Notes: generated by a model from the sequence alone, not told the origin. A stretch of DNA of 42,700 nt from Balneolaceae bacterium (GCA_017643365.1 JAEPNO010000022.1:1-42700); one strand, 5' to 3'. Positions 5,937 to 23,519 are shown, counted from the stretch's first letter. Program-made: numbers and translations.

Positions 5937-6986
5937 CTAGCGCTTTAAAAGAGTATCAATGTTCGATTCTTGGCCTAATTCGTTTGCTATAAACTGGAAA
6001 TTCAAACGGAATTTATCAACGGTTTCTAAAGTGTAGGTACACTCAAGCTGTTGGAGCTGTAATTTAATGAGTGTTTGGCCAAGGTTGGTTGAATTTTCAA
6101 AGGAAACGTTCGTACCATATCCTTGCCCATCGTCTTCGTAAACAAACCTTAATTCACGATCGATGGCTGCCATACTAATATTGATGTTGCCTTCATCACG
6201 ATTAGCAAAGGCGTATTTCACACTATTAGTTAGGAGCTCGTTAAACATCAAACCAAGTGGAATACATTGATTCATATCCAAACGATAATCAGGTACATCG
6301 ATATGCAAATTAATGCTTCGATCCCCCTGAATTGTTTGTTGAATACTTGGCAAAATTCGCTGCAAATATTCGTTGATGTTAACAGAATCCATATCATTCG
6401 AGTCGTAGATTAACTCATGCACTTTGGCGATAGAATGAACTCTGTTTATGCTCTGTTGAAACGGGAGCTTGATGCTTTGGTCGTTAAATTCATTAACCTG
6501 TAATTCAAGTAAACTCGAAATAATTGTTAGGTTGTTTTTAACTCGGTGATGAATTTCGGCAAGTAGGATGGAGGCTTTATCCTGCAGGTAATATTGTTGA
6601 AGTCCACGATCTACTGTGAGTAGAAAGTCTTCCTCGTTCCAGGGCTTGGTGAGGTAGCGATATAGATCAGCTTTATTGATGGCATTCATTGCCGAATCTA
6701 GAGCAGCCTGCCCGGTTAACAGAATTTTTATACTTTTTGGGTAACGTTGATGGAAAATAGTTAGGAACTCATCGCCATACATTCCCGGCATAATTTGATC
6801 AGAAATTGCCATAACCACTGTTTGGCCCATTTTGTCTAGCTCTTCAACAATTTCGAGGGCTTCTTCGCCACTTTCTGCAAATTCGTATTCAAATCGAGTA
6901 CCAAACCTGCGAATAAGCTGCTTGCTTAATGAATTCAGAATGATCTGTTCATCATCAATACAGAGTATAACATCCTTTTTATTCAT
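5937..6986 (-). CDS. Hybrid regulator: receiver domain fused to a HisKA_2 histidine kinase
   Basis: Residues 1 to about 125 form a receiver domain with the acidic pair D11/D12, phosphoacceptor D63 (AISDQIMPG), T91 and K114. A HisKA_2 dimerisation domain follows with EIHHRVKNNL (likely phosphohistidine near 147), then a GHKL ATPase with the N-box FNELLTNSVKYAF and a G-box DDGQGYG. There is no DNA-binding output. It therefore probably takes phosphate from a kinase and passes it on, or is switched by it. The gene overlaps the upstream sensor kinase by eight bases and is the last of the porin/binding-protein/kinase unit. It is a paralogue of the protein at 11138-12196. Confidence 0.85.
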   Translation of the reverse strand: MNKKDVILCIDDEQIILNSLSKQLIRRFGTRFEYEFAESGEEALEIVEELDKMGQTVVMAISDQIMPGMYGDEFLTIFHQRYPKSIKILLTGQAALDSAMNAINKADLYRYLTKPWNEEDFLLTVDRGLQQYYLQDKASILLAEIHHRVKNNLTIISSLLELQVNEFNDQSIKLPFQQSINRVHSIAKVHELIYDSNDMDSVNINEYLQRILPSIQQTIQGDRSINLHIDVPDYRLDMNQCIPLGLMFNELLTNSVKYAFANRDEGNINISMAAIDRELRFVYEDDGQGYGTNVSFENSTNLGQTLIKLQLQQLECTYTLETVDKFRLNFQFIANELGQESNIDTLLKR

Positions 6987-8889
6987 AATTTAGCTGTGCA
7001 TCTTCAATTTCTGTACCATCTTCTGTTGGTATATCAATGTTCTTATCGGCAGCTTTCTTAGGTTTGATAACAGGGATCTTAATTTTAAAACAAGTTTTTC
7101 CGGGTTCAGTTGTTATTTCAATTTCACCTGAATGTTCTTCTATAATTTCTTTCGTAATACTCAATCCCAATCCGGTTCCTTCACCTTTAGCGTTGGTTGT
7201 GAAATATGGGTCGAAAATATGTGGTAGCACGTCATCAGGAATGCCAGGGCCGTTATCTTCTACTTCAACTGAAACCCAATCTTTGTCGATATTTTTTAAC
7301 CGAAGTATTATAGTTCCGCTACCGTTCATTGCTTGGATAGAATTATGAATGAGGTTGGTCCAAACTTGGTTTAAACGCCCTGGGTAGCACTTAATATTAG
7401 GTAGTTCTTCGAATTCCTTTTCGATAGTTATTGCACGCTTGGTTTTGTTGTGCAAGATTATGAGCGTGTTTTCGAGGTCATCTTTCAACGAAGTGAATGA
7501 CTCAGTTTCGTTATCGATTCTGGAATAGGTTTTGAGTGCTTTAACCAGTTGAATGATTCGCGAAATTGCAATTCTGATATCTCTCACATGAATTTGAGAC
7601 ATTCCTATGTTATGGAATGAATTGATTACCATAGGCCCATATTCATGGCTGAAAAGGGGCTCGATTTCTTTTATCGAATTATCAGTAAAACCAACTTGAG
7701 CTAACAAACGGCTATAAAATGCCGAGTCGGATAAAGAATTAATAACCTCAAGATTCTTTATTGCACGCGCTTGTTTTCTAACTTCAGATGTTGAATACGT
7801 TTTGTTCGTTCCGATGATCTTTTTGCACGTATTTAAATACATCACTTTTTTGTCTTCGGGCAGGGTATCGGTAACGATAATCAGATCGTTTAAAATGTCG
7901 ACGTAATCGCGGTTAATTTCATCGATAGCGCTATTAATGGCCCCGGATGGGGTGTTAATTTCATGTGCAACGCTTGCCACAAGCTGACCTAATGCCGCCA
8001 TTTTCTCGGATTGTACCAACTTGACCTGAGTATTCTTCAGATCGTTGAGCGTGTTTGTTGCTTTCTCTTTTTCCTCTTTTAGTTGTTTACTTTGTTTCTC
8101 GAGTTTAGAATAAGCTTTCGAAATACTTTTATTGCGCTCAGAGAGAGAAACATTAAACTGTTCCATCTCAAGAATTCTTTGCTGTTGAGTCTCAATCATT
8201 GTGTCGAGCATGGTATTAAATGAACGAGCAAGTACTTTGATTTCTAAACTACCTTGTTGTTCATTCGCACGTACTTCGGGGTTCTCGATAGAAAATTCCT
8301 GAGCGATATTTTTTAGAGCTTCAACGGGGCGCGTTATACTATTTGCCACAATAAATGCACACATGGAAGCGCCAATTGCAATTATTATAGTTAAAAATGT
8401 GAGGTTAATTGCTGCAGTTCGCTCAGAATCTTGAATGTATTGAGTATTAAAACCCAAGTAGATGGTTCCGTCACCTGAAATAGATGAATACCATTGAATC
8501 TGCTTCACAAAGACATCCGCATCTTTATCGATATATCGAGGAATTTCATCCAGATTTAAATTTTCAATAGATAGCGTATCCGGATAGCTCGCCAACAACT
8601 CTTCATCTTCGTCATAAATAAGTATGAAGTCGATATTTTCATTTCGGGTAGCCCAGGAAAATACCTCACTGATACTTTCGTAATTCTCTTCTTTTAGCCC
8701 AATTTCTAATCCAAGGCGTACTGCTTCTAGTTGAAGCTGCGCGCTTGAATCATATTCCTTATACACCAATCTGTTTTGAATTGCACCATTTATATAGGCG
8801 AACAATACAGTTGCAACAACGGCAATGGCTGTTACAATCACCATAAGTTGGTGTTTTAATGGTATATCGTAGTTTGGCTTAAAGATCAT
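6979..8889 (-). CDS. Transmembrane HAMP sensor histidine kinase
   Basis: There is an N-terminal membrane helix (about residues 10-32), a periplasmic segment of about 125 residues, and a second helix (about 160-182). A HAMP domain and a coiled coil (about 240-290) follow, then an H-box SVAHEINTPSGAI and a complete HATPase: NLIHNSIQAM, DNGPGIP, FTTNAKGEGTGLGL. About 110 residues separate the H-box from the second DHp helix (RIIQLVKALKTYSR), far more than in ordinary HisKA domains. The start is taken as the ATG at 8889 (636 residues), overlapping the TAA of the upstream gene by 11 bases. A TTG at 8901 would add four residues. The small periplasmic domain probably reads the binding protein encoded just upstream. 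Confidence 0.85.
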   Translation of the reverse strand: MIFKPNYDIPLKHQLMVIVTAIAVVATVLFAYINGAIQNRLVYKEYDSSAQLQLEAVRLGLEIGLKEENYESISEVFSWATRNENIDFILIYDEDEELLASYPDTLSIENLNLDEIPRYIDKDADVFVKQIQWYSSISGDGTIYLGFNTQYIQDSERTAAINLTFLTIIIAIGASMCAFIVANSITRPVEALKNIAQEFSIENPEVRANEQQGSLEIKVLARSFNTMLDTMIETQQQRILEMEQFNVSLSERNKSISKAYSKLEKQSKQLKEEKEKATNTLNDLKNTQVKLVQSEKMAALGQLVASVAHEINTPSGAINSAIDEINRDYVDILNDLIIVTDTLPEDKKVMYLNTCKKIIGTNKTYSTSEVRKQARAIKNLEVINSLSDSAFYSRLLAQVGFTDNSIKEIEPLFSHEYGPMVINSFHNIGMSQIHVRDIRIAISRIIQLVKALKTYSRIDNETESFTSLKDDLENTLIILHNKTKRAITIEKEFEELPNIKCYPGRLNQVWTNLIHNSIQAMNGSGTIILRLKNIDKDWVSVEVEDNGPGIPDDVLPHIFDPYFTTNAKGEGTGLGLSITKEIIEEHSGEIEITTEPGKTCFKIKIPVIKPKKAADKNIDIPTEDGTEIEDAQLNYE

Positions 8890-9322
8890 TTCTAATCTCA
8901 AAAATAACTTTAACCTCAGGCGGTACTCTAGTTATTGGTACATAGCCAATTGTTCCCGGATTATTTTTAACCAAATCAATCATATCTGAAATTGAATCGA
9001 CAACCTTTGGGGGAACAGTTCTACCGGTAAACTGCGCACGTAGCCACAGCTTCTTTATAGTTCTTGGTGTTAAATTCAACGAATTATAAAAGAGTATACG
9101 AAGGTAATTTTCGCCTTTATAATCAGCTACCTTTATTCGGTTTTCGTCGCTCCAGTTATGATTAGAGAGTGTATAGATTTCTAACAGGTCTTTTTCAGAC
9201 AATAAATTAGTTTCTATACTTTCGTGAACGATAACAGCGATGTTTTCTACGAATTCTTGTGCAGTTAAATTACTAACAACAGCAAACGAGATAATAAATA
9301 TTAGTAGAGTTACTTTATTCAT
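8879..9322 (-). CDS. PstS-like periplasmic substrate-binding domain protein
   Basis: The 147-residue protein has a signal peptide (hydrophobic run then NLTAQ) and one PBP-like domain. The stretch SEKDLLEIYTLSNHNWSDENRIKVAD and the closing GTIGYV resemble phosphate-binding PstS-like proteins that lack the full two-lobed transporter form. No ABC permease or ATPase lies nearby, so a sensory or chaperone role with the neighbouring kinase is more likely than transport. This is inferred from context. The ATG at 9322 follows the porin stop (TGA, 9325-9327) directly; a TTG at 9328 would overlap that stop. It overlaps the sensor kinase at its 3' end. Confidence 0.7.
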   Translation of the reverse strand: MNKVTLLIFIISFAVVSNLTAQEFVENIAVIVHESIETNLLSEKDLLEIYTLSNHNWSDENRIKVADYKGENYLRILFYNSLNLTPRTIKKLWLRAQFTGRTVPPKVVDSISDMIDLVKNNPGTIGYVPITRVPPEVKVIFEIRNDL

Positions 9323-9324
9323 TA

Positions 9325-10560
9325 TCAAAAAATTGTGCTTATTCCAACACTGAGCATATCAATCGTATATCCCAGATAGTTGTTGTCTCTTACGTAACTC
9401 TGTAAAAACTGTACTTTTATTGATGTATTCTCAAAAGGGCGCCATCCTCCACCAAAACTTGTTACTACAACTCCTGCAGCTGAAGGCGTGCCTTCTTTTA
9501 CCATTTCAAAAGATTGATCCTGATGAAAGCTTGAGTACCCAAAAGCATAAAAGTCATCATTAAAATTGTACGTAAGATTTGCGTACACGAAGTATTTATT
9601 CAAATTTACAAGTGCAAATGCCGGATTTTCACGGATTTCACTATGATTATGGAATACTCCGATGTATTCTGCCTCGAAAGCAATTTTATCGAGCGAGAAA
9701 GACAAATCGTAGCCAATTCGATACCGCTTTACTTCACCTAAAATTGGTGTGGTAAAACTGGGCAAACGGAATATAGAGGTTACTTCTTCGGTTCGGTTGT
9801 CCTCATCATAAGTAAATGATACACCTGTTTTGAAGGTCTCGTATTGATTAATAATCCCAAGTCGACCACCAAAAAGAAGGGCTGTATTCATATTTTCGCC
9901 AAGATAAAAAGCAGTTGCTGCCTCTTCATCATCGGCACTTCCAACCGGTGTTCTAGATAGAAATGAGTTTTCTGCATTGCCAATATAGAATGCGTATTCG
10001 AAATACTTATTAACAAAAAGTTGTGTACTACCTGCTAGCTGGAAATAAGCATTTTGGGGATTATAATCTTCAGGCGTAACTAAATTATTTAACAAGGTTT
10101 CGTACATAATCGGTCGAATCAAATAAGGAAAAAGGGGTAACCGATTTTTGATCTCTGTAAGGTTATTGAATTTAGGAAGTAGTAAACCGGCTTTAACTTC
10201 CAAAAGCTCACTAAATCGGTACGATATCCATCCCTCTGGAATTTCTAAATACCCACTCGGGATTTTTGAAGAATATGAGCCTGTAGCTTCTAAATTCAGG
10301 AAGAAAATACTACGTTCGTTAATAGGCTTTTGAAAAAAGAGATTAACTTGGTGGAGCGCGAAAGAAGTAGAATTAAACGTATTTCCATATGGGAATGGAA
10401 TTTCATCAGATTCATATACATTATAGCTAACCGATTTTGTATTCAACAAAACCTGGCTAAAACCAAATATATATAAATCATCATCGTATTGTGCTTTCGT
10501 ATTATTCGAGAAGGAAAACACTAACACTAATATTAATAATAATGTGAGGGTACGATTCAT
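9325..10560 (-). CDS. Outer-membrane beta-barrel porin-like protein
   Basis: A clear signal peptide ends near TKAQ (residues 1-23). The remaining roughly 390 residues alternate polar and aromatic residues with many Tyr/Phe at strand ends, for example YVFAYNLTYNFNDD-like segments, and the protein ends in a C-terminal Phe (ISTIF), the classic barrel insertion signal. No TonB-dependent plug is present. It heads a tight unit with the PstS-like protein, sensor kinase and receiver-kinase, which suggests that it lets the sensed ligand into the periplasm. The ligand is unknown. Confidence 0.7.
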   Translation of the reverse strand: MNRTLTLLLILVLVFSFSNNTKAQYDDDLYIFGFSQVLLNTKSVSYNVYESDEIPFPYGNTFNSTSFALHQVNLFFQKPINERSIFFLNLEATGSYSSKIPSGYLEIPEGWISYRFSELLEVKAGLLLPKFNNLTEIKNRLPLFPYLIRPIMYETLLNNLVTPEDYNPQNAYFQLAGSTQLFVNKYFEYAFYIGNAENSFLSRTPVGSADDEEAATAFYLGENMNTALLFGGRLGIINQYETFKTGVSFTYDEDNRTEEVTSIFRLPSFTTPILGEVKRYRIGYDLSFSLDKIAFEAEYIGVFHNHSEIRENPAFALVNLNKYFVYANLTYNFNDDFYAFGYSSFHQDQSFEMVKEGTPSAAGVVVTSFGGGWRPFENTSIKVQFLQSYVRDNNYLGYTIDMLSVGISTIF

Positions 10561-10678
10561 TAAATGGCCAACTTCATAAATGTTTCGAATTATTTACTGT
10601 GTATTTATCGGTCAGGATTAACTAATATTAAATAGAGGACGATAAGGGAGTATACTTTAATTTAAATTAGTTACATAA

Positions 10679-11128
10679 ATGAAATTTTTTACACTAGGCT
10701 TATTATTAATTGTTGGTGCGGCGTGCAGTTCAACACCATCTGGGACTGCAGAATCAGACCCTGAAGTGTTAATTTTAGGCTCTTGGGTGGTAAGCAATGC
10801 ACAGGTAGATGGTAGTAGTTATCCAATAACAACTCCCGGATTCGGCCAAATAGAAGCTAATTTCGAGAGTGATTTGTTTACTTACATTTATCCGGAAGTG
10901 GGCTCGAATGGAATGCCGAATGGTAGAACAGATACACTTTATGCTAACTGGAGCTTTAACGCTGCTTTCGATACACTCAGTTTTACTTACTTAAATAGTT
11001 CTGAGTTTGTATTTATTTGGCATGTTAAAGAGTTGCAAGTGGGGCGTTTATCCACCGATTATATCTCGCGATCTGCTGACAATCCTGATCAGCAATCTAA
11101 ATATGATATCAACTATAGACTAAAGTAA
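10679..11128 (+). CDS. Small secreted lipoprotein, lipocalin-like
   Basis: The 149-residue protein has a lipoprotein signal peptide with lipobox VGAAC (Cys16). The mature part starts with a Ser/Thr-rich linker and then ILGSWVVSNAQVDG. This is the opening of lipocalin-like small beta-barrel lipoproteins seen in Bacteroidota, where a weight-of-evidence G-x-W motif begins the first strand. It probably sits in the envelope and binds or shields an unknown ligand. The gene is divergent from the porin and convergent with the second receiver-kinase. Its stop codon forms part of the shared hairpin at 11119-11142. Confidence 0.65.
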   Translation: MKFFTLGLLLIVGAACSSTPSGTAESDPEVLILGSWVVSNAQVDGSSYPITTPGFGQIEANFESDLFTYIYPEVGSNGMPNGRTDTLYANWSFNAAFDTLSFTYLNSSEFVFIWHVKELQVGRLSTDYISRSADNPDQQSKYDINYRLK

Positions 11129-11142
11129 GGCGTTACTTTAGT
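11119..11142. terminator. Bidirectional terminator-like hairpin containing both stop codons
   Basis: ACTAAAGTAA (11119-11128) and TTACTTTAGT (11133-11142) form a perfect 10-bp stem around GGCG, followed by TTTT on the plus strand. The stems contain the TAA of the lipoprotein gene and, on the other strand, the TAA of the receiver-kinase gene. The stem is AT-rich, so its strength is uncertain. Confidence 0.6.
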
Positions 11143-12196
11143 TTTGTGGCTTCATATGATGGAGGGCGTTGTCAACTCTTTTGGCGCGTCCGGCATCAAA
11201 TGAAAAATTAAGTTCGAAGGTATTATTAGTGTTCAATGTGTAGATACTCTCTAATTGCTGCAATTGAATATTTATCAGCATAAGCCCTAATGAATTTGTA
11301 TTTCTAAGCGATCCAGAGCTTTCAAATCCCGGTCCGGAATCTTTATAGCTGAAAGCTAATCGATTGCCTTCTACGCCCATCGTAATTACAATTTTCCCTT
11401 CATTACTTTCATTAAAAGCATACTTAAACGAATTGGTTATCAACTCGTTAAATATTAATCCCAAGGGAATAGCTTGATTTACTTTCAATTTATAGCTGGG
11501 GATATCGAACTCGAATTCGATATTTTTAGCATAATCTTGCAGGGTAGAATGAATAGTTGGAATAATTTTTTCGAGATATTTTTTAATATCTACACTGGTC
11601 ATATCCTCTGATTCATAAATCAGTTCATGTACTTTGGCAATGGAATTAATTCTATTTATGCTTTGCTGGAAGTATGATTTACTACCGGCATCATCAATTT
11701 CATTAATTTGCAATTCCAGTAGGCACGTAATAATGGTAAGATTATTTTTAACTCGGTGGTGAATTTCACCAAGTTGTAATTCAATATTCTCTTTTATATA
11801 AAATTGTTGAATACCGCGGGATACAATGTTGATGAAATCAACTTCATCCCAAGGCTTAATCATGTAACGATAAATTTCAGCTTCATTAATAGCAGCAATT
11901 ACCGATTCAAAATCAGATTTACCCGAAAATAAAATTTTAATTGCATACGGAAAGGTTAAAGCAAGCTCAGTAAGAAACTCCGTACCTTGTTTACCAGGTA
12001 AGATTTGGTCAACGATGGTCATAACCAACCGTCGTTTCTCATCTTTTAAATTTTTAATTATCACTTCTGCTTCTTCGGCTGTTTCAACGAACATGAAATC
12101 GAATTGCTCACCGAAATGACCGACTAATTGAGCCTTCATTAATTTTAAAATGATTTGCTCATCGTCGATGCAGAGGATTACATCTTTATTATTCAT
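11138..12196 (-). CDS. Second receiver-HisKA_2 hybrid kinase, paralogue of the 5937-6986 gene
   Basis: The order is the same: a receiver (CIDDEQ, phosphoacceptor D63 in VDQILPG, IKPW lysine), then EIHHRVKNNL of HisKA_2, then a GHKL ATPase (FNELITNSFKYAF, DSGPGF). Roughly half the residues are identical by eye to the protein at 5937-6986, which points to a duplication within the locus. The usual Thr of the receiver active site is replaced by Ser (ILFSG). There is no DNA-binding domain. The gene lies between the lipoprotein gene and the PAS kinase and is transcribed from its own ATG with a 111-base gap upstream, so it could be cotranscribed with the PAS kinase. Confidence 0.85.
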   Translation of the reverse strand: MNNKDVILCIDDEQIILKLMKAQLVGHFGEQFDFMFVETAEEAEVIIKNLKDEKRRLVMTIVDQILPGKQGTEFLTELALTFPYAIKILFSGKSDFESVIAAINEAEIYRYMIKPWDEVDFINIVSRGIQQFYIKENIELQLGEIHHRVKNNLTIITCLLELQINEIDDAGSKSYFQQSINRINSIAKVHELIYESEDMTSVDIKKYLEKIIPTIHSTLQDYAKNIEFEFDIPSYKLKVNQAIPLGLIFNELITNSFKYAFNESNEGKIVITMGVEGNRLAFSYKDSGPGFESSGSLRNTNSLGLMLINIQLQQLESIYTLNTNNTFELNFSFDAGRAKRVDNALHHMKPQN

Positions 12197-12307
12197 TCTG
12201 TACTACCTTTTTATAAAAACGGAGCGTCTATCTTTAAGTCCGTTATTTTACTTATCGGCAGTGTTTAGTTAGGTATTAATAAGAATTGAAATATTAATAA
12301 ACGCTAA

Positions 12308-14443
12308 TTAAATAGAATCTTTGAAACTGATAGTGTGTGAAAAGCCGTTTTTGCTATCAAAACTGCGGGTTGCATCAATTTGATCACATAGAGTAGCAAC
12401 CAAATTTAATCCCATTGAGTGCGCATTATTGTGTGTAAAGTCTCCAGAAATTCCGGGACCATTATCTTTAATGGTTAAAATGATGTTAGATTCGATTTTG
12501 TGTAATTGTATCCAAATTTTTGGGTCAGAATGATTATTAATAGCGTGTTTAAAACAATTAGACAAAAGTTCATTTAGAATCAATGCGCAAGGCAGCGCTT
12601 GGTTAATATCCAAGAAAAGGGGAGCAAGATCGTATTCGATTTTAACTTCAGCCTGTGTAGTTCGGCTATCTTTTAACATGTTCACCTGATCTCGAATGAA
12701 CTGAGAGAAACTAATTTTCGAGAAATCTTGCGATCGATATAATTCTTCATGAATCGTAGCAATACTTTTAATACGATTCATATTGATAGAAAGTCGATCT
12801 TTTAGTTCTTCATTATCGGTATCGATAACCTGCAGGTACATTAACCCTGCAATAACAGCAAGATTATTTTTTACACGATGATGAACTTCTGCAACCAAAG
12901 AGTCTTTCTCTCTCATCGATTGTTTCAATAATAATTCCCTTTCCATTCGATCTGAAATATCCTGCACCGTACCAATAACTCGTTCCGGCTCATCATCAGC
13001 ATTATAGATCAATTTACCGGTAGAGTTTAACCAATGGATACTTCCATCAGCCCAAACAACACGATAATCAACATTGTAGAATGTGTCATTTTCTAAGGCG
13101 TTTTGATAATTTTCATCAACCTTTTTCCGGTCATCAGGGTGCACGCAATCTAAAAACGTCTGATAATCCCAATGTGGATGAAAGTTAGTGAAGCCAAAAC
13201 AGCGATCATGTTCTATAGTACGCATGGTTTTTAGGGTGGTGAGGTCTAAATCCCAAATACCAATTTTGGTGGATTCTAAAATAATTCGCAACCGTTGTTC
13301 GCTTTTTAGCACCATATTTTGAGCTAACTCTAATTCGGTGATGTCTTTCACTGTTGCGATATAGCTTATTACTTCACCTTCGTCGTTTAACACTTTTGAA
13401 GGGGATACAATAACCGGAAATATTTCACCATTTTTGCGCTTAAACTTCAGTTGAAACTCACTTTTTTCGCCCGAGATAACTTTTCCAAAGGCTTTTTGTA
13501 TGTCTTCAAGGTGTTCTTTTGGCCAGTATTTATGCGGAACACCGCTGCCAATTAATTCGTGTTCTTCGAATCCAAGCATTTCACAGAATGCAGAATTAAC
13601 CATTAAGTGATTTCCTTCTACATCGAGCATGGAAAATCCGTCGTTCATACTCTCTAACACATTCGCTGTTAGATGCTGGGTTTTTTCAAGCTGACTCTCG
13701 GCATGTTTTCGTTTAGAGATATCACGTGCATTTGCAATTATGTACCCAACATTATCAATGATTTCATGACTAATCGTTATCTCAACGGGAAATTGTTTAC
13801 CAGTAGAAAGATTGGTATTGGTGCTTTCGAAAATCATTCGCTTAACTTGTTTCATTTCTGAAACATGGTCTTGCCAATCTTTTATAGATTTAAAATCATC
13901 TTCGAAATCACAAACATGAGTTGAGCGAATATCATCTTTAGAGATGCCCAGTTGCTTTAAACCCACATCATTAACATATACTAAGTATCCATCTTCTCTG
14001 GCAACCTGAAAAGAATCGAAGCTGTTATCTAAAAACTTGTTGTAAAGTTGAAAAATTTCGAGTTGCTGGGTAGTTTTATTCTCTTTATTAACTTCTTTTG
14101 TTACATCAGTAAAAATTATGGTTAATCCATTTTCTGTAGGGTAAATACGATTGTCGAACCATCTATCCCAAGGGTTATAATATTCGCGAATGGATTGTAC
14201 TTGCTTTGTTTCTAATGCTAATAATGAAATTTCGTAGATAGCCTGATTTTTGGCCTCAGGAAATACTTCCCATATACTATTTCCTATTAATTGCTCCTGA
14301 TCTTTTCCGAGTAACTTACAAGCTGCTTTATTTACAAAAGTGTATTTCCAATTGGAATCTAAACAGACAAATCCATCCGCGATATTCTCCAATATCTCTA
14401 TACTCAATAGATTTAACTCATAGCTTAAGCGAGATTCCGGCAT
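12308..14443 (-). CDS. Soluble four-PAS HisKA_2 sensor kinase
   Basis: Four PAS/PAC modules lie in tandem (about residues 12-120, 125-245, 253-370 and 380-500), each ending in a DIT/DIS-type helix such as IIFTDVTKEV, NARDISKRK, TVKDITELE and TVQDISDRM. The kinase core follows with EVHHRVKNNLAVIAGL and a GHKL domain containing LNELLSNCFKHA and DNGPGISG. No membrane segment is present, so it senses a cytoplasmic signal such as a small ligand or redox state. The H-box is nearly the same as in the two receiver-kinases nearby, which suggests that they work in one network. The length of 711 residues is normal for multi-PAS kinases. Confidence 0.85.
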   Translation of the reverse strand: MPESRLSYELNLLSIEILENIADGFVCLDSNWKYTFVNKAACKLLGKDQEQLIGNSIWEVFPEAKNQAIYEISLLALETKQVQSIREYYNPWDRWFDNRIYPTENGLTIIFTDVTKEVNKENKTTQQLEIFQLYNKFLDNSFDSFQVAREDGYLVYVNDVGLKQLGISKDDIRSTHVCDFEDDFKSIKDWQDHVSEMKQVKRMIFESTNTNLSTGKQFPVEITISHEIIDNVGYIIANARDISKRKHAESQLEKTQHLTANVLESMNDGFSMLDVEGNHLMVNSAFCEMLGFEEHELIGSGVPHKYWPKEHLEDIQKAFGKVISGEKSEFQLKFKRKNGEIFPVIVSPSKVLNDEGEVISYIATVKDITELELAQNMVLKSEQRLRIILESTKIGIWDLDLTTLKTMRTIEHDRCFGFTNFHPHWDYQTFLDCVHPDDRKKVDENYQNALENDTFYNVDYRVVWADGSIHWLNSTGKLIYNADDEPERVIGTVQDISDRMERELLLKQSMREKDSLVAEVHHRVKNNLAVIAGLMYLQVIDTDNEELKDRLSINMNRIKSIATIHEELYRSQDFSKISFSQFIRDQVNMLKDSRTTQAEVKIEYDLAPLFLDINQALPCALILNELLSNCFKHAINNHSDPKIWIQLHKIESNIILTIKDNGPGISGDFTHNNAHSMGLNLVATLCDQIDATRSFDSKNGFSHTISFKDSI

Positions 14444-15920: not shown

Positions 15921-17299
15921 TATTTCTCCTCGTTAACTAATTCATAAAAATTGACAAGCGATTCTTCATGCATACACATGTCGAAGTCTTCTCGACTAAA
16001 GATCACAACATCTTCGATGGTTGATTCAGGATCAATCATAATACGTTGATCGGCTTCATCGGTGTTGATGTCGAAGTACTTTACGCCATCTACAAAAGTC
16101 ATTTGCGGAATAGCATAGGTAGAAAGTGGGTGTTTATCGAAAATGGCGATGTCACCGTCTTTTCCTACTTCGATTGAACCAACGCAATTATCAATTCCCA
16201 ACTGCATAGCAGGGTTTATGGTGATAAGAGCGAGTGCTTCATTGTCAGATAGTCCACCATATTTTTGCGACTTAGCCGCTTCGTGGAATAAATGACGAAT
16301 CAGTTCACCAGAATCTGAGTTGATAGAAGTATTCACACCATTTCTGGTTAAGATAGCTGCATTGTACGCTGTTGAATAGTACACTTCGAGTTTGTACGCC
16401 CACCAATCAGAAAAGATGGAAGCAGAAGCACCAAAGGCAGCTAATTCAGGGGCAACTTTGTAAGCTTCATTTGCATGCTGAAAAGTTAGCTTGTCGATTC
16501 CGAAATCGGAAAATACACGCATTAACATGTAGATTTCATCTGCTCGATAAGAGTGGCAGTGTACCAGAATTTCACCTTCAAGAATATCAACAAGTGTTTC
16601 CATTCTTAAATCGAATTCGGGTGCAATTTTACGATTGCTTCGGTTCGAATTGTAATCCGCCCAAGCTTCGCGATATTTAATTGCATCGTTGAAAGAATTA
16701 CGGATCATAGCTTCAACACCCATTCGAGTTTGAGGTTGAATTCCTCTTTGACGACCACCGCGTGTTGGATTTTCACCCAATGCAAATTTGATGGTTCTTG
16801 GAGCACCTTCAAACCGTAAGTCATCCGGATTGGTTGTTCCGTAGCGAAGCTTCATGGTTTCGTTTTGGCCACCAATTACATTTGCAGAGCCATGCATTAG
16901 GTGAATGGATGTAACTCCACCGGCTAAGGCTCGATAAATCGAAACGTCCATTGGGTTTACAACATCTTCCATGCTTACTTCTGCGGTAACCTGGCTGGTT
17001 CCTTCGTTGATGGAAGTTCCGGCAATGTGCGAGTGCGCATCGATAATTCCGGGCATCACAAACATACCTTCAGCATCAATTACAGTCACATTATTAGGTT
17101 GACGTAAATCTTTGCCAATGTTTTTGATTTTACCGTCTTCGATTAGAATATCGGTGTTTTCAAGAGTTCCATTGGTGATGGTTAAAACAGTAGCGTTTTG
17201 GATGAGCACATCACCTTTTGGAGCTTGAGCTTTTGCATCGTTAATTGAAAACAAAAGCATCAGAATGGTAAAAATACTTGTAAGTCTTAATGTTTTCAT
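15920..17299 (-). CDS. Secreted metal-dependent amidohydrolase with intact active site
   Basis: A signal peptide ends near DAKAQ. The metal motif is present as PGIIDAHSHIAG (HxH), followed by the mid-domain histidines HCHSYRAD and FQHANEAY and the Asp in SINSDSGEL. The C-terminus reads CVGSIEVGKDGDIAIFDKHPLS. This is a complete amidohydrolase set, so it should hydrolyse a cyclic amide, peptide or related bond in the periplasm. The substrate cannot be told. It is translationally coupled to both neighbours, with ATGA upstream and TAATG downstream, and they are probably made in equal amounts. Confidence 0.82.
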   Translation of the reverse strand: MKTLRLTSIFTILMLLFSINDAKAQAPKGDVLIQNATVLTITNGTLENTDILIEDGKIKNIGKDLRQPNNVTVIDAEGMFVMPGIIDAHSHIAGTSINEGTSQVTAEVSMEDVVNPMDVSIYRALAGGVTSIHLMHGSANVIGGQNETMKLRYGTTNPDDLRFEGAPRTIKFALGENPTRGGRQRGIQPQTRMGVEAMIRNSFNDAIKYREAWADYNSNRSNRKIAPEFDLRMETLVDILEGEILVHCHSYRADEIYMLMRVFSDFGIDKLTFQHANEAYKVAPELAAFGASASIFSDWWAYKLEVYYSTAYNAAILTRNGVNTSINSDSGELIRHLFHEAAKSQKYGGLSDNEALALITINPAMQLGIDNCVGSIEVGKDGDIAIFDKHPLSTYAIPQMTFVDGVKYFDINTDEADQRIMIDPESTIEDVVIFSREDFDMCMHEESLVNFYELVNEEK

Positions 17300-18981
17300 T
17301 GTTCAGGCTCTCCTTTGGTAGCAGTTATTGGAATCGACATGTTAAATGCGTCTATGGTCGCAGTACCAACAAACGTATCCCCGTCGATATCTCCCGATAC
17401 AAACACGGTTAGCATTTGGCCACCTGCATCGAAAGCAAATTCGTAGCTAAGCGAATTGTTAGCAAAGTTTAGGTTTTCCATATCGGTATCTGCCAGACCG
17501 GAAGGATCATTACTTGTAAATACTCCGGTTAATGCACCGGTTTCAGTTGAGAAAATCCACTTACCGGTTTGTTCACCTTCAGGTGTTGTTAAAGAATAGT
17601 TCCAAGTACCTATTAGTACCGATGCAACTTCATCGCTAACCGGTGTGCTTGAATTTTCTTTAATCTCAAAATCGTACTTATCACCGTTTACGAATACCAT
17701 TTTTACGTCCGAGTCGGAAGAGAAATATGGTCCGGTCGAAACTAAGGCATTTCCCATTTTTCCGGTTTCTAGTGTGCCGGTAATTGCATCAATACCTAAT
17801 AATTGAGCAGGGTGCGTAGTTAACGCTGCAAGCGCATCGGTAGAATCAAAACCGAATTCTTGCAATGCAATAAAGTTCTTTTTGATTTTCGAACTAGTAA
17901 CCCCATGCGTTGAAAACCCGAACTTAATTCCGGCCGCTTTTAAAGCTGCAAATTGCTCCATGTGGCGATTGTAGAACTCTAAACGTCGTGCTTCAAGGTT
18001 AGCAACTTCTTCAGATTTATCTTCATCATCGTTTTCCTCAGGCTTTTCTGGGATATCTAGTGATAAGAACACCGAAACATTGTTGTTGTCTAGTTCATCA
18101 ATGATTTCCCAAGATTGCTCAAGGTTACCGATCATCAAATTGAATCCCATTTCTTTTTGAAGTTGAATTGCACGGCGAGCTTCAAGCAATGAGGAAGCAT
18201 TAAATAAAATCGGCTGTGATTTTTCTACAACCGGGTAGAAAGCTTCTGAAACACGATCGTTCATCGGTCTGGCTAATCCGGTTGGATTAGAAGCATAAAG
18301 CTCGGTGTTTCTTTTCGACAATTCAGCATTGCGATAAATGTTTCTCCACTTTGCCATAATACCCAGCGTGTTTCCAGGGTATGCACCGGGTGCGCCAACA
18401 AATTGTGAAACGGTAGACACATCCTTTTTTAGAATCAGATGATCCACATGCTCAGCATCAGAAAGTAGAATTAGCGAGCTTTTCCCGGGGAGCATACGTC
18501 CGTGCGGGATTGTGTGCGACACTGTAAAACCAATTTTCCGCATACTACTGATGCTGCTCTCTGTAATATCTAACTGTTCGATAACCGAAATATGAGGCGT
18601 AACTCCTGCATAATCGTTGGGTGGATCCGGTGTGAATAAATTATCCGGGCGTTCCATCGGTTCCGGACGATTTGCGCCAGTATTAGACATTGCGTCGATA
18701 AACCCAGGGTAAACCCAAAGGTCGGTTCCATCAATTACTTCAGCATGGCTGGGGATAGTAACATTGGTTCCAATGGCGGTTATTACGCCGTCTGATATTA
18801 TAACTGTACCACTGTCGATTTTGGCACCGGGCGAAGGGATGATTGTCGCTTTAGTTATTGCATAGGTACGAGTAACCGGTGATTTACCGGTTGGGTCGCT
18901 TTGTGCAATTACTAAAGTTGATGCCATCAAGAAGGGTAGAAGTACGAACAGACGAAAAGTAAATTTTCGTAGAAGTTTCAT
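17296..18981 (-). CDS. Secreted amidohydrolase-like protein with degenerate metal site and extra C-terminal domain
   Basis: A signal peptide ends near VIAQ. The amidohydrolase core is recognisable from the N-terminal beta strands, the PGFIDA stretch, and late TTHPAQLLGIDAITGTLETGKMGNALV. The first metal motif reads PGFIDAMSNTG, so HxH is lost. About 120 residues at the end (from about 440) form a separate beta-rich domain starting LIGTWNYSLTTPEGEQTGKW, of a kind seen in secreted Bacteroidota proteins. A linker near residues 310-325 is acidic (EENDDEDKSEE). It is first in the three-gene unit. Confidence 0.75.
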   Translation of the reverse strand: MKLLRKFTFRLFVLLPFLMASTLVIAQSDPTGKSPVTRTYAITKATIIPSPGAKIDSGTVIISDGVITAIGTNVTIPSHAEVIDGTDLWVYPGFIDAMSNTGANRPEPMERPDNLFTPDPPNDYAGVTPHISVIEQLDITESSISSMRKIGFTVSHTIPHGRMLPGKSSLILLSDAEHVDHLILKKDVSTVSQFVGAPGAYPGNTLGIMAKWRNIYRNAELSKRNTELYASNPTGLARPMNDRVSEAFYPVVEKSQPILFNASSLLEARRAIQLQKEMGFNLMIGNLEQSWEIIDELDNNNVSVFLSLDIPEKPEENDDEDKSEEVANLEARRLEFYNRHMEQFAALKAAGIKFGFSTHGVTSSKIKKNFIALQEFGFDSTDALAALTTHPAQLLGIDAITGTLETGKMGNALVSTGPYFSSDSDVKMVFVNGDKYDFEIKENSSTPVSDEVASVLIGTWNYSLTTPEGEQTGKWIFSTETGALTGVFTSNDPSGLADTDMENLNFANNSLSYEFAFDAGGQMLTVFVSGDIDGDTFVGTATIDAFNMSIPITATKGEPEQ

Positions 18982-19139
18982 TCTTAATGAGTTAGTTAAA
19001 TATTGTAGCTATTAAATAATAGTTCTGAAGTGCTTAGAATAGGATAAATCACTTCAAAATGGAATAAGAATGAGTATAAAAGAAAAAAGGAACTGAAATG
19101 TAGTTTTAACTGCGAATTACAAAAATTTGCATGCCTAGC

Positions 19140-19913
19140 TTAACGATGGAAGTGTAATCCGAATTGGGGGTTTGTAAAGTGAAACCCAAAGTAATTATAT
19201 AAGTTCAACACCGGAGTATTCGATGAGCTGATTGTGGTGTTGATGGAAGCATTTGTAGACAATTTCAGTAGAGTATCAGCCCAAAAACTGTACGATAAAT
19301 GCTGGAAATTTGATTTAACTCCCCCAAACAACAATTGAGCTTTATCTTGCTCTTTTACCTTCCATGCCATAAAGCCAATCGCTTTTTCTTTTTTAAGTAG
19401 GATATTGAAATCAGCACCTTGAGAAATAAGGTTATCTATCCAGTTTCGATTTCTAAGGGAAGCCTGTTCTAAAGTTATTTTCGGATCTTCGTGAAATCGG
19501 CCAAAATTGAACGACTCACTTGCAATGCTTTTAACCGCATCAAGTTGATCGCTAACATTTGGTGTGGTTGTAACAGGGATTCGCTGCAGAAGTTCTTCCG
19601 CTAAATTTGTATCGAAAGAACTGCTTGTTACATCTAAGGTGTGTTCTACAATTTGAAACCCAATATTTTGCAGTGCAAGTTTTAATTGGTGGTTATCTGC
19701 AGGAATACGAGCCGAATAAAATTCATCACCGGTAATAGTAGTTGAGGCTAAAAAAGAGGCTAAAAGCGACTCATAGTTTTTCGAAGCCGTATCAATTTTA
19801 AGGATAGCCAGAGCCGGTTTATTTAAAACTTTGGCGTCCCAAGGAGTGCGTTGGAAGGAGAGGCTGCCGTCTTCCACTTCAAATAATTGAGGTGAAAAAT
19901 CAGATGGTTCCAT
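19140..19913 (-). CDS. GNAT acyltransferase, WecD-like
   Basis: The 257-residue protein opens with LSFQRTPWDAKVLNKPALAIL, the conserved start of dTDP-fucosamine acetyltransferase (WecD/RffC-like) proteins. It ends in a GNAT-like half with AIGFMAWKV, LLFGGV and a LYNYFGF motif near the C-terminus. It should transfer an acyl group to an amine, most likely on a sugar nucleotide, and the neighbouring ACP may supply the acyl group. It overlaps the upstream SDR by 14 bases and is the last gene of the unit. There are 158 bases before the next operon, with no clear terminator seen. Confidence 0.65.
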   Translation of the reverse strand: MEPSDFSPQLFEVEDGSLSFQRTPWDAKVLNKPALAILKIDTASKNYESLLASFLASTTITGDEFYSARIPADNHQLKLALQNIGFQIVEHTLDVTSSSFDTNLAEELLQRIPVTTTPNVSDQLDAVKSIASESFNFGRFHEDPKITLEQASLRNRNWIDNLISQGADFNILLKKEKAIGFMAWKVKEQDKAQLLFGGVKSNFQHLSYSFWADTLLKLSTNASINTTISSSNTPVLNLYNYFGFHFTNPQFGLHFHR

Positions 19914-20622
19914 TATCGATAAATATGTTTTGTCCGGTGATAGATTCGGACTTATCTGAAAGTAGAAAATCTATGGTATCAGCCACGGATTGAATCGATA
20001 CTTCTTTTTTGAGTGAGGTACGCCGATATATTTTAGCCTTTTGTTCATCGGTTAAAGCGCTACTCATTTCTGTTTCCATAAAACCTGCAACCACACAATT
20101 TGATCGAATTCCTTTCGAACCCCACTCGCGAGAAATGTTTTTCGAATAAGCTTCTAAAGCTCCTTTGGTGGATGCGTACATCGAAAGCCCTTTATATCCG
20201 GTATGAACACTTATCGAAGATAAATGCACCAAACTTCCCGCAATGTTGTGCAGTAGCATTTGGCGGATTGCATATTTAGAAAGTATGATTGGAGAATACA
20301 CATTCACTTTGTACATGGCCTCGAGCGCATTTAAATCGGCGTTTGTGGCGATGTCATCGTAGGCAATAGCGGCGTTATTAACTAAACCATGAATGGGAGT
20401 TTTTAATCCAATAAACTGTTTAAAAACGATATCTCGAATACTTTCAGCGTCAGAAAGATCGAATGAAACCCAATGTATTGACTGTGGAAACTCGTTCAAT
20501 AATTGTTCAAGAGCGTCAGTTTTTGATCTGCTGATTCCATAAACATTATACCCTTGATTGAGCAAAGTTCTTGCTACTTCTAATCCCAATCCTTTTGAAA
20601 CACCGGTTACGATTACATTCAT
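19900..20622 (-). CDS. SDR family oxidoreductase (FabG-like)
   Basis: The Rossmann motif TGVSKGLGLEVA at the N-terminus, NNAAIAYDD, the catalytic Ser in LSSISVHTGY and the YASTKGA active-site Tyr/Lys pair are all intact, and the length (240) is normal. Closest by pattern are 3-oxoacyl-ACP reductases. Between an ACP/ligase pair and a GNAT, reduction of an acyl thioester or a keto sugar is plausible. The substrate is inferred only from context. Its start overlaps the ligase stop (ATGA). Confidence 0.8.
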   Translation of the reverse strand: MNVIVTGVSKGLGLEVARTLLNQGYNVYGISRSKTDALEQLLNEFPQSIHWVSFDLSDAESIRDIVFKQFIGLKTPIHGLVNNAAIAYDDIATNADLNALEAMYKVNVYSPIILSKYAIRQMLLHNIAGSLVHLSSISVHTGYKGLSMYASTKGALEAYSKNISREWGSKGIRSNCVVAGFMETEMSSALTDEQKAKIYRRTSLKKEVSIQSVADTIDFLLSDKSESITGQNIFIDNGTI

Positions 20623-21854
20623 GCTACTTTGCGATCTATTTTTCCGGTTGAGGTTGTCGAAATTTCATCCACAAATTTAAACATTCGAGGGATTTTGGCT
20701 TCTTGAACTTTTGAGGCTAGAAAAGTACGAATCTCTTTTTCAGAGATAGAATGACTTGCTATAATTTCTGCACACAGTAGGTTTCCTAATACCGAGTTAG
20801 GCTTAGCGAACACGCGTGACTGTTTAATTGCGGGATGTTGCTTTAAGACTTCTTCAATTTCTAGCACATTAACTTTAAAGCCACCAATATTAACCTGATC
20901 AGATATTCTGGCTTTAAATTTAAATTGAAGCGGAGATTCAGAGATAATTTCCACCAAATCGCCGGTTGAATACCACTCAATGTTGTTCTGCATCGATTTA
21001 CCCAATAGTGATGAATGCAGGATTAATTCCTCATCTTTAAAGCGAACAAAATCTTTAATCGATTCAGAAACATGAAAAACTTCACCTTTCGCGCCAAAAA
21101 GTGCTCCACCTTCAGTTGATGCATACACGTTTGTAAATGTAGCATTGGGGAAAGTTTTAGAAATTTCAGCTTCCAGTGAGGCTTCAAATTTTTCGCCACC
21201 GCTTGTTATTTTTTGAACAGTTGGGAAAGGCTCATCGGTTGGCAACAGTAAGCGATAAAAAGTAGGTGTTGCCGATATATGCGTGACGTTGAATTTTTGT
21301 ATTGATTCGATTTGGTCTTTTTTTGATAAGCCGATCAATCGAACCATGGAATCACCGTTCAATAGAGCTTGCAAAAACACCTGTACACCGGCCATATGTG
21401 TTGGTAGGTACGAAAATCCCCAAATTTTTGGTGAGTCAGTGTGTGGATAAAGTCGAGTATTTCGAGTTATACTTTTAAATGAGTGAGTTATAGCTTTAGG
21501 CTTATTCGTAGTACCGGAAGTAAACAAAGTTAACTCCCACGAATCTGATGTATTTCTAAGGCTTTGTATTAACTCATGTTTGGTTTTTGGTATACGAACA
21601 GATGATGTGGGCTCTTCGAAAGAAGCAAAATCGGAATGCCCTGTGAGGTCTTTTAGGCTTTCGGAACTTAGATCCGGATCAAGCAGAGTGATTTTTTTTC
21701 CGCTTAGCATGGAAAAAATTATCCTCAAAAACGTTTGATAATACCCTTGTTCGAAACAATAAGGGGAGTGCTTTGAAATATTCGAGAGGTCGGTAATTAA
21801 ATCAGAGTATGAAATATGTTGCTCAGACGAGATATCTGAATAAAACAAACTCAT
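20619..21854 (-). CDS. Short AMP-dependent acyl ligase (ANL superfamily)
   Basis: The ATP-binding P-loop LFTSGTTNKPKAITHS (about residues 131-146), the YASTEGGALFG motif, YSTGDLVE and the C-terminal catalytic lysine region STTSTGKIDRK are in the order expected for acyl- and aryl-activating ANL enzymes. At 411 residues it is about 100 shorter than typical acyl-CoA ligases, mostly because the N-terminal subdomain is reduced. This is seen in ligases that load a dedicated acyl carrier protein. The overlap with the ACP gene (ATGA) suggests that the ACP is its partner. Confidence 0.8.
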   Translation of the reverse strand: MSLFYSDISSEQHISYSDLITDLSNISKHSPYCFEQGYYQTFLRIIFSMLSGKKITLLDPDLSSESLKDLTGHSDFASFEEPTSSVRIPKTKHELIQSLRNTSDSWELTLFTSGTTNKPKAITHSFKSITRNTRLYPHTDSPKIWGFSYLPTHMAGVQVFLQALLNGDSMVRLIGLSKKDQIESIQKFNVTHISATPTFYRLLLPTDEPFPTVQKITSGGEKFEASLEAEISKTFPNATFTNVYASTEGGALFGAKGEVFHVSESIKDFVRFKDEELILHSSLLGKSMQNNIEWYSTGDLVEIISESPLQFKFKARISDQVNIGGFKVNVLEIEEVLKQHPAIKQSRVFAKPNSVLGNLLCAEIIASHSISEKEIRTFLASKVQEAKIPRMFKFVDEISTTSTGKIDRKVA

Positions 21855-22081
21855 GCTTTCTGCATTAAACGTTCTTTGATTTCCTCAACGGTATTTACCA
21901 AACCATTTTCAAAAACATCAACGTCAAATTCAGCTTCTATTCGAACGGTAAGTTCAGCAAGATCAAGAGAATCGAAGCCAATATCATCTCTAAAATGATC
22001 TGAGTCTTTTAGTTCAGAAATCGTTGGTTTCGATCGATTGTCTAACACTGTGTTGATAATGCCCAATAAAGTAGTATCCAT
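21851..22081 (-). CDS. Acyl carrier protein, stand-alone
   Basis: The 76-residue acidic four-helix protein has the phosphopantetheine attachment motif GFDSLDLAEL with the invariant Ser. Length and charge pattern fit ACPs. It is not next to fabF or fabD-type housekeeping genes but directly upstream of a ligase, an SDR and a GNAT, so it is probably a specialised carrier for one acyl group rather than the fatty-acid ACP. It follows the rlmD-type gene by 19 bases. Confidence 0.88.
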   Translation of the reverse strand: MDTTLLGIINTVLDNRSKPTISELKDSDHFRDDIGFDSLDLAELTVRIEAEFDVDVFENGLVNTVEEIKERLMQKA

Positions 22082-22100: not shown

Positions 22101-23519
22101 TTACGATTTTAGCCGAAGTTGTGCAACTGCTTCAACATGGTAGGTTTGCGGAAACATATCTACCGGTTGAACTTTCACAACTTCATATGTTTCTGCTAGG
22201 ATAGACAAATCCCGTGCCATAGTTGAACTATCGCAACTCACATAAACGATACGTGGAACTTTTAACTCGCATAACCGAGCAACTACATCAGGGTGCATGC
22301 CCGCACGCGGAGGGTCTGTAATTAGAACATCAGGTGCGCCAAATTCTTCAACCATCTCTTTAGTGAAAACATCTTTCATGTCGCCGCGCACAAAGGATAC
22401 ATTTTTCACATCGTTTTCTTCGGCGTTGTATCGGGCGTTTTCAACGGCAACATCAACCAACTCGATCCCAAGCACTTTACTTGCCTTTTGGCTCATATAT
22501 AAACTTAGTGTTCCTACACCACAGTATAAATCATACACTACATCATCTTGCTTGAGGTCGGCATATTCTCGAGCAACATCGTAAAGCTTTTCTGCCTGAG
22601 CTGTGTTGGTTTGGAAGAATGCATTGGGATGAATCTTAAATTCAAACTCCCCAATTTTATCACGAATGTAACCCGGACCATAGTACACGTTTTCGAAGCG
22701 TCCGATTGCTGTAGGATTGTGCTGATCGTTTACGTTGTTTACAACGGTGGTGATTACCGGAAATTCCTTAATCAGGGCATCGGTAATGCCTTTCATGGTT
22801 TGAGGCTCATCTCTAAAAGTGACGAGATTAACCATAAAATCATCGGTGTGATAGGCCGTTCTGATCATCACATGACGCAAAAAACCCTCTTTTTCAAAAA
22901 TATTGAACGGCTCAATATCGTGCTCCAAACAATAGGCTTTTACAAACTGGAGGATTTGAAAAGATTCTTCGCGTTGCAAATGACATTCATTCAAATTCAG
23001 GATTTTATCGAATCGGCCCGGAGCATGTAAACCGGCGGCGAACGCGGTATCGTCAACAAAGTCTTCGCTTCTAATTTCTTCTTCAGTAAGCCACCGCTTA
23101 TTACTGATACTGTACTCCATTTTATTGCGATAATAAAATTCCTGGTCGGAGCCAATTGCCGGAAATACTGGCGTATCCAATCTTGCAATCCTACGAATGT
23201 GATCGGTAACCTGGCCGGTTTTAAATTCCAGTTGTTTTTGATAGGGCACATGTTGCCAACTACAGCCACCACAAATCGTTGCGTGTTGGCATTTTGGAGT
23301 TATTCGATCCGGACTTTCTTCCAGCAATTCCAGCATTTTTGCTTCGCGATAGCTTTTCCGTCGTTTCACTATTCGGGCTCTAACTACATCGCCGGGCATA
23401 GTTCCGGGAACAAAAATGGCGAGACCATCAACTTTGGCCACGCCTTTTCCTTTAAATGCGGCGCTTTCGATAGTTAATGTAAGTTCGGCACCTTTTTTTA
23501 AACTGATAGGGGAGTTCAT
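22101..23519 (-). CDS. rlmD: RlmD-type 23S rRNA (uracil-5)-methyltransferase
   Basis: The protein begins with a TRAM-like RNA-binding domain (about residues 1-65) and then four Cys for a 4Fe-4S cluster, including CQHATICGGCSWQH. The SAM motif is VYDLYCGVGTLSLYMS (about 320-336), followed by DPPRAGMH and the catalytic YVSCDSSTMARDL. This is the TrmA/RlmC/RlmD family; RlmD methylates U1939 of 23S rRNA in E. coli. Which uridine is used here, or whether it is RlmCD-like, cannot be seen. Its start overlaps the stop of the cNMP gene (TAATG). Confidence 0.88.
   Translation of the reverse strand: MNSPISLKKGAELTLTIESAAFKGKGVAKVDGLAIFVPGTMPGDVVRARIVKRRKSYREAKMLELLEESPDRITPKCQHATICGGCSWQHVPYQKQLEFKTGQVTDHIRRIARLDTPVFPAIGSDQEFYYRNKMEYSISNKRWLTEEEIRSEDFVDDTAFAAGLHAPGRFDKILNLNECHLQREESFQILQFVKAYCLEHDIEPFNIFEKEGFLRHVMIRTAYHTDDFMVNLVTFRDEPQTMKGITDALIKEFPVITTVVNNVNDQHNPTAIGRFENVYYGPGYIRDKIGEFEFKIHPNAFFQTNTAQAEKLYDVAREYADLKQDDVVYDLYCGVGTLSLYMSQKASKVLGIELVDVAVENARYNAEENDVKNVSFVRGDMKDVFTKEMVEEFGAPDVLITDPPRAGMHPDVVARLCELKVPRIVYVSCDSSTMARDLSILAETYEVVKVQPVDMFPQTYHVEAVAQLRLKS

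Follow-up and report, generated by a model that had tools for sequence, protein, structure and literature searches.

The window, 42,700 nucleotides from a Balneolaceae bacterium, is the whole of contig C14 of a 3.77 Mb genome (G000). On the minus strand, at 19140-22081, it carries four genes predicted to encode an ACP, a short AMP-forming acyl ligase, an SDR and a GNAT N-acyltransferase, with successive overlaps of 4, 4 and 14 bp (Table 1). The first-pass annotation of this DNA had described four overlapping open reading frames here, and all four were found at the same coordinates; its assignment of the first three to the ACP, ligase and SDR families agrees with Pfam matches for each. The four genes are co-transcribed, and scans for promoters and terminators returned matches no commoner than in shuffled sequences.

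Table 1. Genes of the cassette and borders of the slot that contains it, in window coordinates.
Feature	Position	Strand	Evidence or remark
First gene of amidohydrolase trio, downstream slot border	17296..18981	-	directly follows rlmD in G305 and G187
Conserved intergenic sequence TGCAAATTTTTGTAAT, downstream slot edge	19116..19131	-	alignment of G000, G123, G305 and G187
WecD-like GNAT N-acyltransferase, 257 aa	19140..19913	-	AlphaFold and WecD structural match
SDR, FabG-like beta-ketoacyl/hydroxyacyl reductase, 240 aa	19900..20622	-	PF13561 (adh_short_C2), E 2.6e-46
Short AMP-forming acyl ligase, 411 aa	20619..21854	-	PF00501, E 9.3e-20; PF13193 (AMP-binding_C), E 1.2e-10
ACP, 76 aa, GFDSL phosphopantetheine site	21851..22081	-	PF00550 (PP-binding), E 3.3e-8
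rlmD, upstream slot border, 19 bp before ACP gene	22101..23519	-	TIGR00479, 372 bits vs 183.6

Read by eye, the characteristic motifs are intact in the ACP (GFDSL), the ligase (TSGTTNKPK, STGD and STGKIDRK) and the SDR (TGxxxGxG, NNA and S..YxxxK). Based on general family profiles, the ligase resembles acyl-CoA ligases; we predict that it loads the ACP. Its AlphaFold model was poor (pLDDT 52) and was left out of the analysis. The cassette lacks a KAS III gene and has the AMP ligase in its place. D-alanylation of the Dlt type was considered and ruled out, as the DltA model TIGR01734 gave 61.9 bits against a cut-off of 559.85. The GC content of the cassette (35-39%, compared with mostly 41-45% in neighbouring genes) hints at a foreign origin; however, a conserved neighbour gene is equally low, so we discount this hint.

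The GNAT had no match in Pfam, and it matched the WecD equivalog model TIGR02382 below threshold (E 3.6e-6; 26.7 bits vs a cut-off of 195.1). AlphaFold produced a confident model (pLDDT 90.8), for which both aligners returned E. coli WecD, the TDP-fucosamine acetyltransferase (2fs5), as the best PDB match, with Z 20.5 and an rmsd of 2.6 over 216 of 222 residues; the next entry reached Z 17.1. In the structural comparison the two-part WecD fold covers the whole length of the GNAT, and WecD ranks first (E 7e-20) against a profile of WecD-like proteins that includes the cassette GNAT. The predicted fold is therefore clearly WecD-like, as the first-pass annotation had claimed. A WecD-profile search of its own genome identified the cassette GNAT as the sole match. 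A scan of the genome contigs with the single GNAT sequence had no match, and a scan with a two-sequence GNAT alignment matched only Gracilimonas mengyeensis DSM 21985 (G278).

In proteins of this kind, an R/QxxGxG/A loop normally grips the pyrophosphate of CoA, and WecD itself uses acetyl-CoA as donor. The GxG/A of this donor loop is kept in 11 other WecD-like proteins in our alignment (A3); its glycines are gone in the window GNAT, which reads QHLSYS, and in that of G. mengyeensis, which reads GMYAPF. Because both of these GNATs are encoded beside an ACP, the loss of the loop suggests, at the level of sequence, that the donor may be acyl-ACP.

No sugar-synthesis genes adjoin the cassette, as had been noted earlier; the WecE of this genome is encoded instead among flagellins on contig C50, not on C14. 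The protein passes TIGR02379 (502 vs 434.9) and NF008687, its best PDB matches are WecE structures, and it is 63% identical to the WecE of G. mengyeensis. The gene order on C50 is fliD, fliS, a gene for a 1560-aa glycosyltransferase, WecE and four flagellins, and no acyltransferase was found in this island. Aminotransferase and transferase genes linked to flagellins, as in a viosamine-type island, are thus present on C50, away from the cassette. The glycosyltransferase has a GT41 domain and a C-terminal GT56 domain, and WecF, which transfers Fuc4NAc in the synthesis of enterobacterial common antigen, is a member of GT56. Encoded at L032:11378-16060 on C50, this flagellin glycosyltransferase combines TPR, GT41, a methyltransferase-like region and the C-terminal GT56 (WecF family) in a single protein. 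GT56 also occurs in the WecE-bearing islands of G. mengyeensis, a congener of our strain (G123) and three further genomes (G258, G302 and G085), in the last three of which it lies on a split second, adjacent open reading frame. In G089, where the island contains CDP-sugar genes and lacks a WecE-type aminotransferase, a search of the C-terminal part of the equivalent protein detected no GT56 domain. The hexapeptide transferase that adjoins WecE in genus g4 had no match in G000 or G123.

A search for the four-gene order in other genomes, which the first-pass annotation had proposed, found all four families together in one relative, G. mengyeensis, where they lie adjacent to one another behind WecE in a flagellin-glycosylation island. 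This island begins with fliD and fliS (divergent), followed by a large glycosyltransferase, a hexapeptide transferase, WecE and the GNAT; after the GNAT come the ACP, the ligase, the SDR, a methyltransferase, a sulfotransferase-like gene (called by eye, with no Pfam match) and three flagellins. The order ACP-ligase-SDR is common to the window and G. mengyeensis; the GNAT gene is last in the former and first in the latter. The proteins encoded in the window are 42.5% (SDR), 32% (ligase) and 27% (GNAT; E 3e-21) identical to their counterparts in G. mengyeensis. Because a second acyltransferase, the hexapeptide one, also stands beside WecE there, the G. mengyeensis GNAT may act on a different acceptor.

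Across 394 genomes of the phylum and a plasmid collection, the ACP-ligase-SDR order was found in at least 10 other loci, often with overlapping genes, and in most trio loci seen the ACP is kept beside the ligase. The cassette shares with these loci the three families in adjacent or overlapping genes. Many of the relatives, as well as G. mengyeensis, have the trio within an amino-sugar or flagellin locus, which is not the case in the window. The loci contain PglC-like and PglD-like genes, hexapeptide transferases and aminotransferases, and others are nonulosonic-acid loci. Plasmid-borne trios occur in Qingshengfaniella and in Azospirillum brasilense Sp7, whose plasmid p3 carries ACP-ligase-SDR-KAS III immediately ahead of a flagellin gene, with pseI close by (L204:7450-12937); this arrangement suggests that the trio serves acylation of the flagellin glycan in that bacterium. 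Since the ACP-ligase-SDR order recurs and all four families occur together in one relative, the gene order of the cassette is not due to chance.

The closest relative of the window trio is in G384 (L190:8470-11209; 49% aa identity for the ACP, 41% for the ligase and 55% for the SDR), where a hexapeptide-like gene lies alongside and no sugar genes lie nearby; a stand-alone trio is therefore not unique to the window. In trees, the ligase and SDR of the window group with those of G384 (100/100 and 99/100, respectively), apart from those of G. mengyeensis. Two separate trio lineages are thus paired with one GNAT family; such pairing points to a functional link between trio and GNAT, albeit with paired GNATs that are themselves distant. 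A cluster in G311 was ruled out as a closer relative, as the trees place its ligase and SDR in a separate clade with strong support and its GNAT had no similarity to the window GNAT in a pairwise search. That cluster (L016:3560-8235) reads GNAT-ACP-SDR-metallohydrolase (MBL)-KAS III-ligase, followed by sugar acetyltransferase and aminotransferase genes, and represents a richer, though more distantly related, form of the module.

The cassette is bordered upstream by rlmD, a CRP-like gene and an Omp85 gene, and downstream by three amidohydrolase genes. The first-pass annotation had placed it downstream of rlmD and bamA-like genes; the first of these identifications stands (TIGR00479), whereas the Omp85 gene is nearest the TamL model, not BamA (E 1e-93, below that model's cut-off). 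Orthologues of rlmD are present in 86 of 92 family genomes. We compared the region between rlmD and the amidohydrolase trio in four genomes. The sequence TGCAAATTTTTGTAAT directly follows the last gene of this slot, or rlmD itself, in G000, G123 and G305, and it has one difference in G187. In G305 and G187 the slot is empty, with 148 and 136 bp, respectively, between rlmD and the amidohydrolase trio, and a WecE search had no match in either G187 or G305, the latter a genome that is 82% complete. In the congener G123, which has a WecE 92% identical to ours in the same flagellin island, the slot (L097:7777-9138) holds a WbqC gene (PF08889) and a formyltransferase gene (PF00551). In G147, G246 and G301, all of genus g6, WbqC proteins 50-53% identical to that of G123 are encoded next to GT56-rmlA-WecE, which hints at a role for WbqC in the dTDP-Fuc4N pathway, although in this genus WbqC also adjoins a separate PglD-like transferase. 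Based on these loci and the G. mengyeensis set, relatives of both slot contents travel with WecE elsewhere. Slot content and WecE correlate in all four genomes compared, a small sample, and the full cassette was found in the slot of one strain and its distant four-gene relative in one other. The location had been called unexpected; this puzzle is largely resolved, since what follows rlmD is a slot whose contents can be exchanged.

Taken together, we consider it probable that the cassette serves ACP-dependent N-acylation of a flagellar sugar of the dTDP-Fuc4N type and is unlinked from the island that it supplies. The ligase would adenylate a short acid, possibly a hydroxy acid or one with a 3-oxo group, and load it onto the ACP. 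The SDR would set the oxidation state of the acyl group, by 3-oxo reduction or the reverse, either on the ACP or after transfer. The GNAT would then move the acyl group to the 4-amino group of the dTDP-4-amino-4,6-dideoxyhexose (Fuc4N type) produced by WecE, and the C-terminal GT56 domain of the flagellin glycosyltransferase would add the acylated sugar to the flagellin glycan, whose final form would carry this acyl group. Because the slot after rlmD has its content exchanged from species to species, the acyl decoration of the same sugar would vary accordingly. The first-pass annotation had suggested an acylated amino sugar of a surface glycan; this is favoured by the trios in amino-sugar loci and by the position of the G. 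mengyeensis set after WecE, although flagellin is a likelier destination than O-antigen. Counted against a flagellar role are the low identity of the window GNAT to that of G. mengyeensis (only 27%), the separation of the cassette from WecE, and the placement of its ligase and SDR with G384, whose trio has no visible sugar context.

A broader and more tentative reading, which we regard as possible but somewhat doubtful, is that the rlmD slot is a dedicated exchange site for cassettes that N-modify a constant Fuc4N-type sugar, and that the GNAT has switched from acyl-CoA to acyl-ACP. The alternative contents under this reading, all in Balneolaceae, would be hydroxyacyl-ACP/GNAT, WbqC plus formyltransferase, or none.

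The cassette could instead acylate another surface glycan unrelated to flagella, such as an amino sugar of the polysaccharide locus on contig C22, which contains rmlB, rmlA, FdtA/QdtA-like genes, an aminotransferase, KAS III and an LpxD-like hexapeptide acyltransferase; elsewhere, too, the trio often serves polysaccharide loci. However, C22 is already equipped with an acyltransferase and a KAS III of its own, the GNAT is WecD-like, the nearest four-gene relative sits with WecE at flagellins, and the WecE of this genome is on C50 rather than C22, which together make this reading unlikely. Within C22, the KAS III, the LpxD-like hexapeptide acyltransferase and two FdtA/QdtA-like genes (L035:2333-5555) form a second, independent acyl-amino-sugar system.

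A product other than a glycan, whether an N-acyl amino acid, a lipid or a small specialised metabolite, would fit the non-sugar genes that surround both the cassette and the stand-alone G384 trio, and GNATs that use acyl-ACP are generally known to make such products in other bacteria. We consider this rather improbable, as the fold is nearer to WecD than to any other entry (Z 20.5 vs 17.1), trio relatives are for the most part situated in amino-sugar or flagellin loci, and relatives of each alternative slot content accompany WecE. The N-acyl sugar could also arise by an ordinary acyl-CoA route, in which ligase and GNAT use coenzyme A and the ACP is a mere side carrier. This reading draws on the family resemblance of the ligase and on the donor of WecD, but is quite improbable given that translation of the ACP and ligase genes is coupled, that the two stay adjacent in most trio loci seen, and that the CoA-pyrophosphate loop of the GNAT has lost its glycines.

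For the favoured role in N-acylation of a flagellar Fuc4N-type sugar, the best functional precedent is the viosamine island of P. syringae (vioA, vioM, vioT, vioS, vioB, vioR and acp), in which an ACP, a ketoreductase and an N-acyltransferase give N-(3-hydroxybutyryl)viosamine on flagellin, and whose glycosyltransferase VioT rejects the unreduced N-acetoacetyl sugar (PMC3927599). Common to both systems are an ACP, a 3-oxoacyl-ACP reductase and an N-acyltransferase for a dTDP-4-amino-4,6-dideoxyhexose of flagellin, as well as variable content, since the viosamine island differs among P. syringae strains. Unlike that island, the cassette has an AMP ligase in place of the KAS III VioS and a WecD-like GNAT in place of VioB, the aminotransferase is of the WecE type, and the genes for acylation lie apart from the island.

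The group II islands of Aeromonas and the FGIs of Enterobacteriaceae contain an ACP, an AMP-dependent synthetase/CaiC and FabG, for which fatty acid synthesis and a 'liposugar' have been suggested; luxC/luxE are also found in these islands (PMC7874193, PMC4875605), and the enterobacterial flagellin islands have formyltransferases in addition to Acp, CaiC and FabG. The likeness, drawn from the gene descriptions, lies in the trio of ACP, 3-oxoacyl-ACP reductase and AMP-dependent synthetase, whereas the cassette has no luxC/luxE, includes a WecD-like GNAT and is located outside the island. In Bacteroidota glycan loci and on A. brasilense p3, the trios match the cassette in all three families and in their order, often with overlapping genes, but their partner acyltransferase is usually hexapeptide or PglD-like rather than a WecD-like GNAT. 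With the WecE-WecD-WecF branch that makes Fuc4NAc for enterobacterial common antigen, the strain shares a WecE orthologue, the WecD fold and a GT56 domain; it differs in the predicted acyl-ACP donor (not acetyl-CoA), the fusion of GT56 to GT41 and the destination, which would be flagellin and not the common antigen.

Earlier work has already described the trio itself in flagellin islands, where it was linked to possible lipid synthesis; new here are the slot, a putatively ACP-adapted WecD homologue and a probable link to Fuc4N in this phylum. If our reading is correct, the ACP, ligase and reductase genes of such islands would have a specific role in supplying N-acyl groups for an amino sugar, and the GNAT would offer a testable case of a shift from CoA to ACP donors. 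Flagellar surface variation could then be driven by a small exchange site distant from the flagellar genes. Fuc4N, known from enterobacterial common antigen, would also occur on flagella in another phylum; a prediction of Fuc4N exists for the flagella of Clostridium butyricum, where it was called not previously reported in flagellar glycans (PMC13317340).

Elsewhere in the window, several closely spaced response-regulator/histidine-kinase genes fall within 5937-14443, with similar kinase modules at 5937-6986, 11138-12196 and 12308-14443. An IS3-like transposase OrfA, called by eye, lies at the end of the contig (42213-42527) and is probably the reason that the contig stops there.
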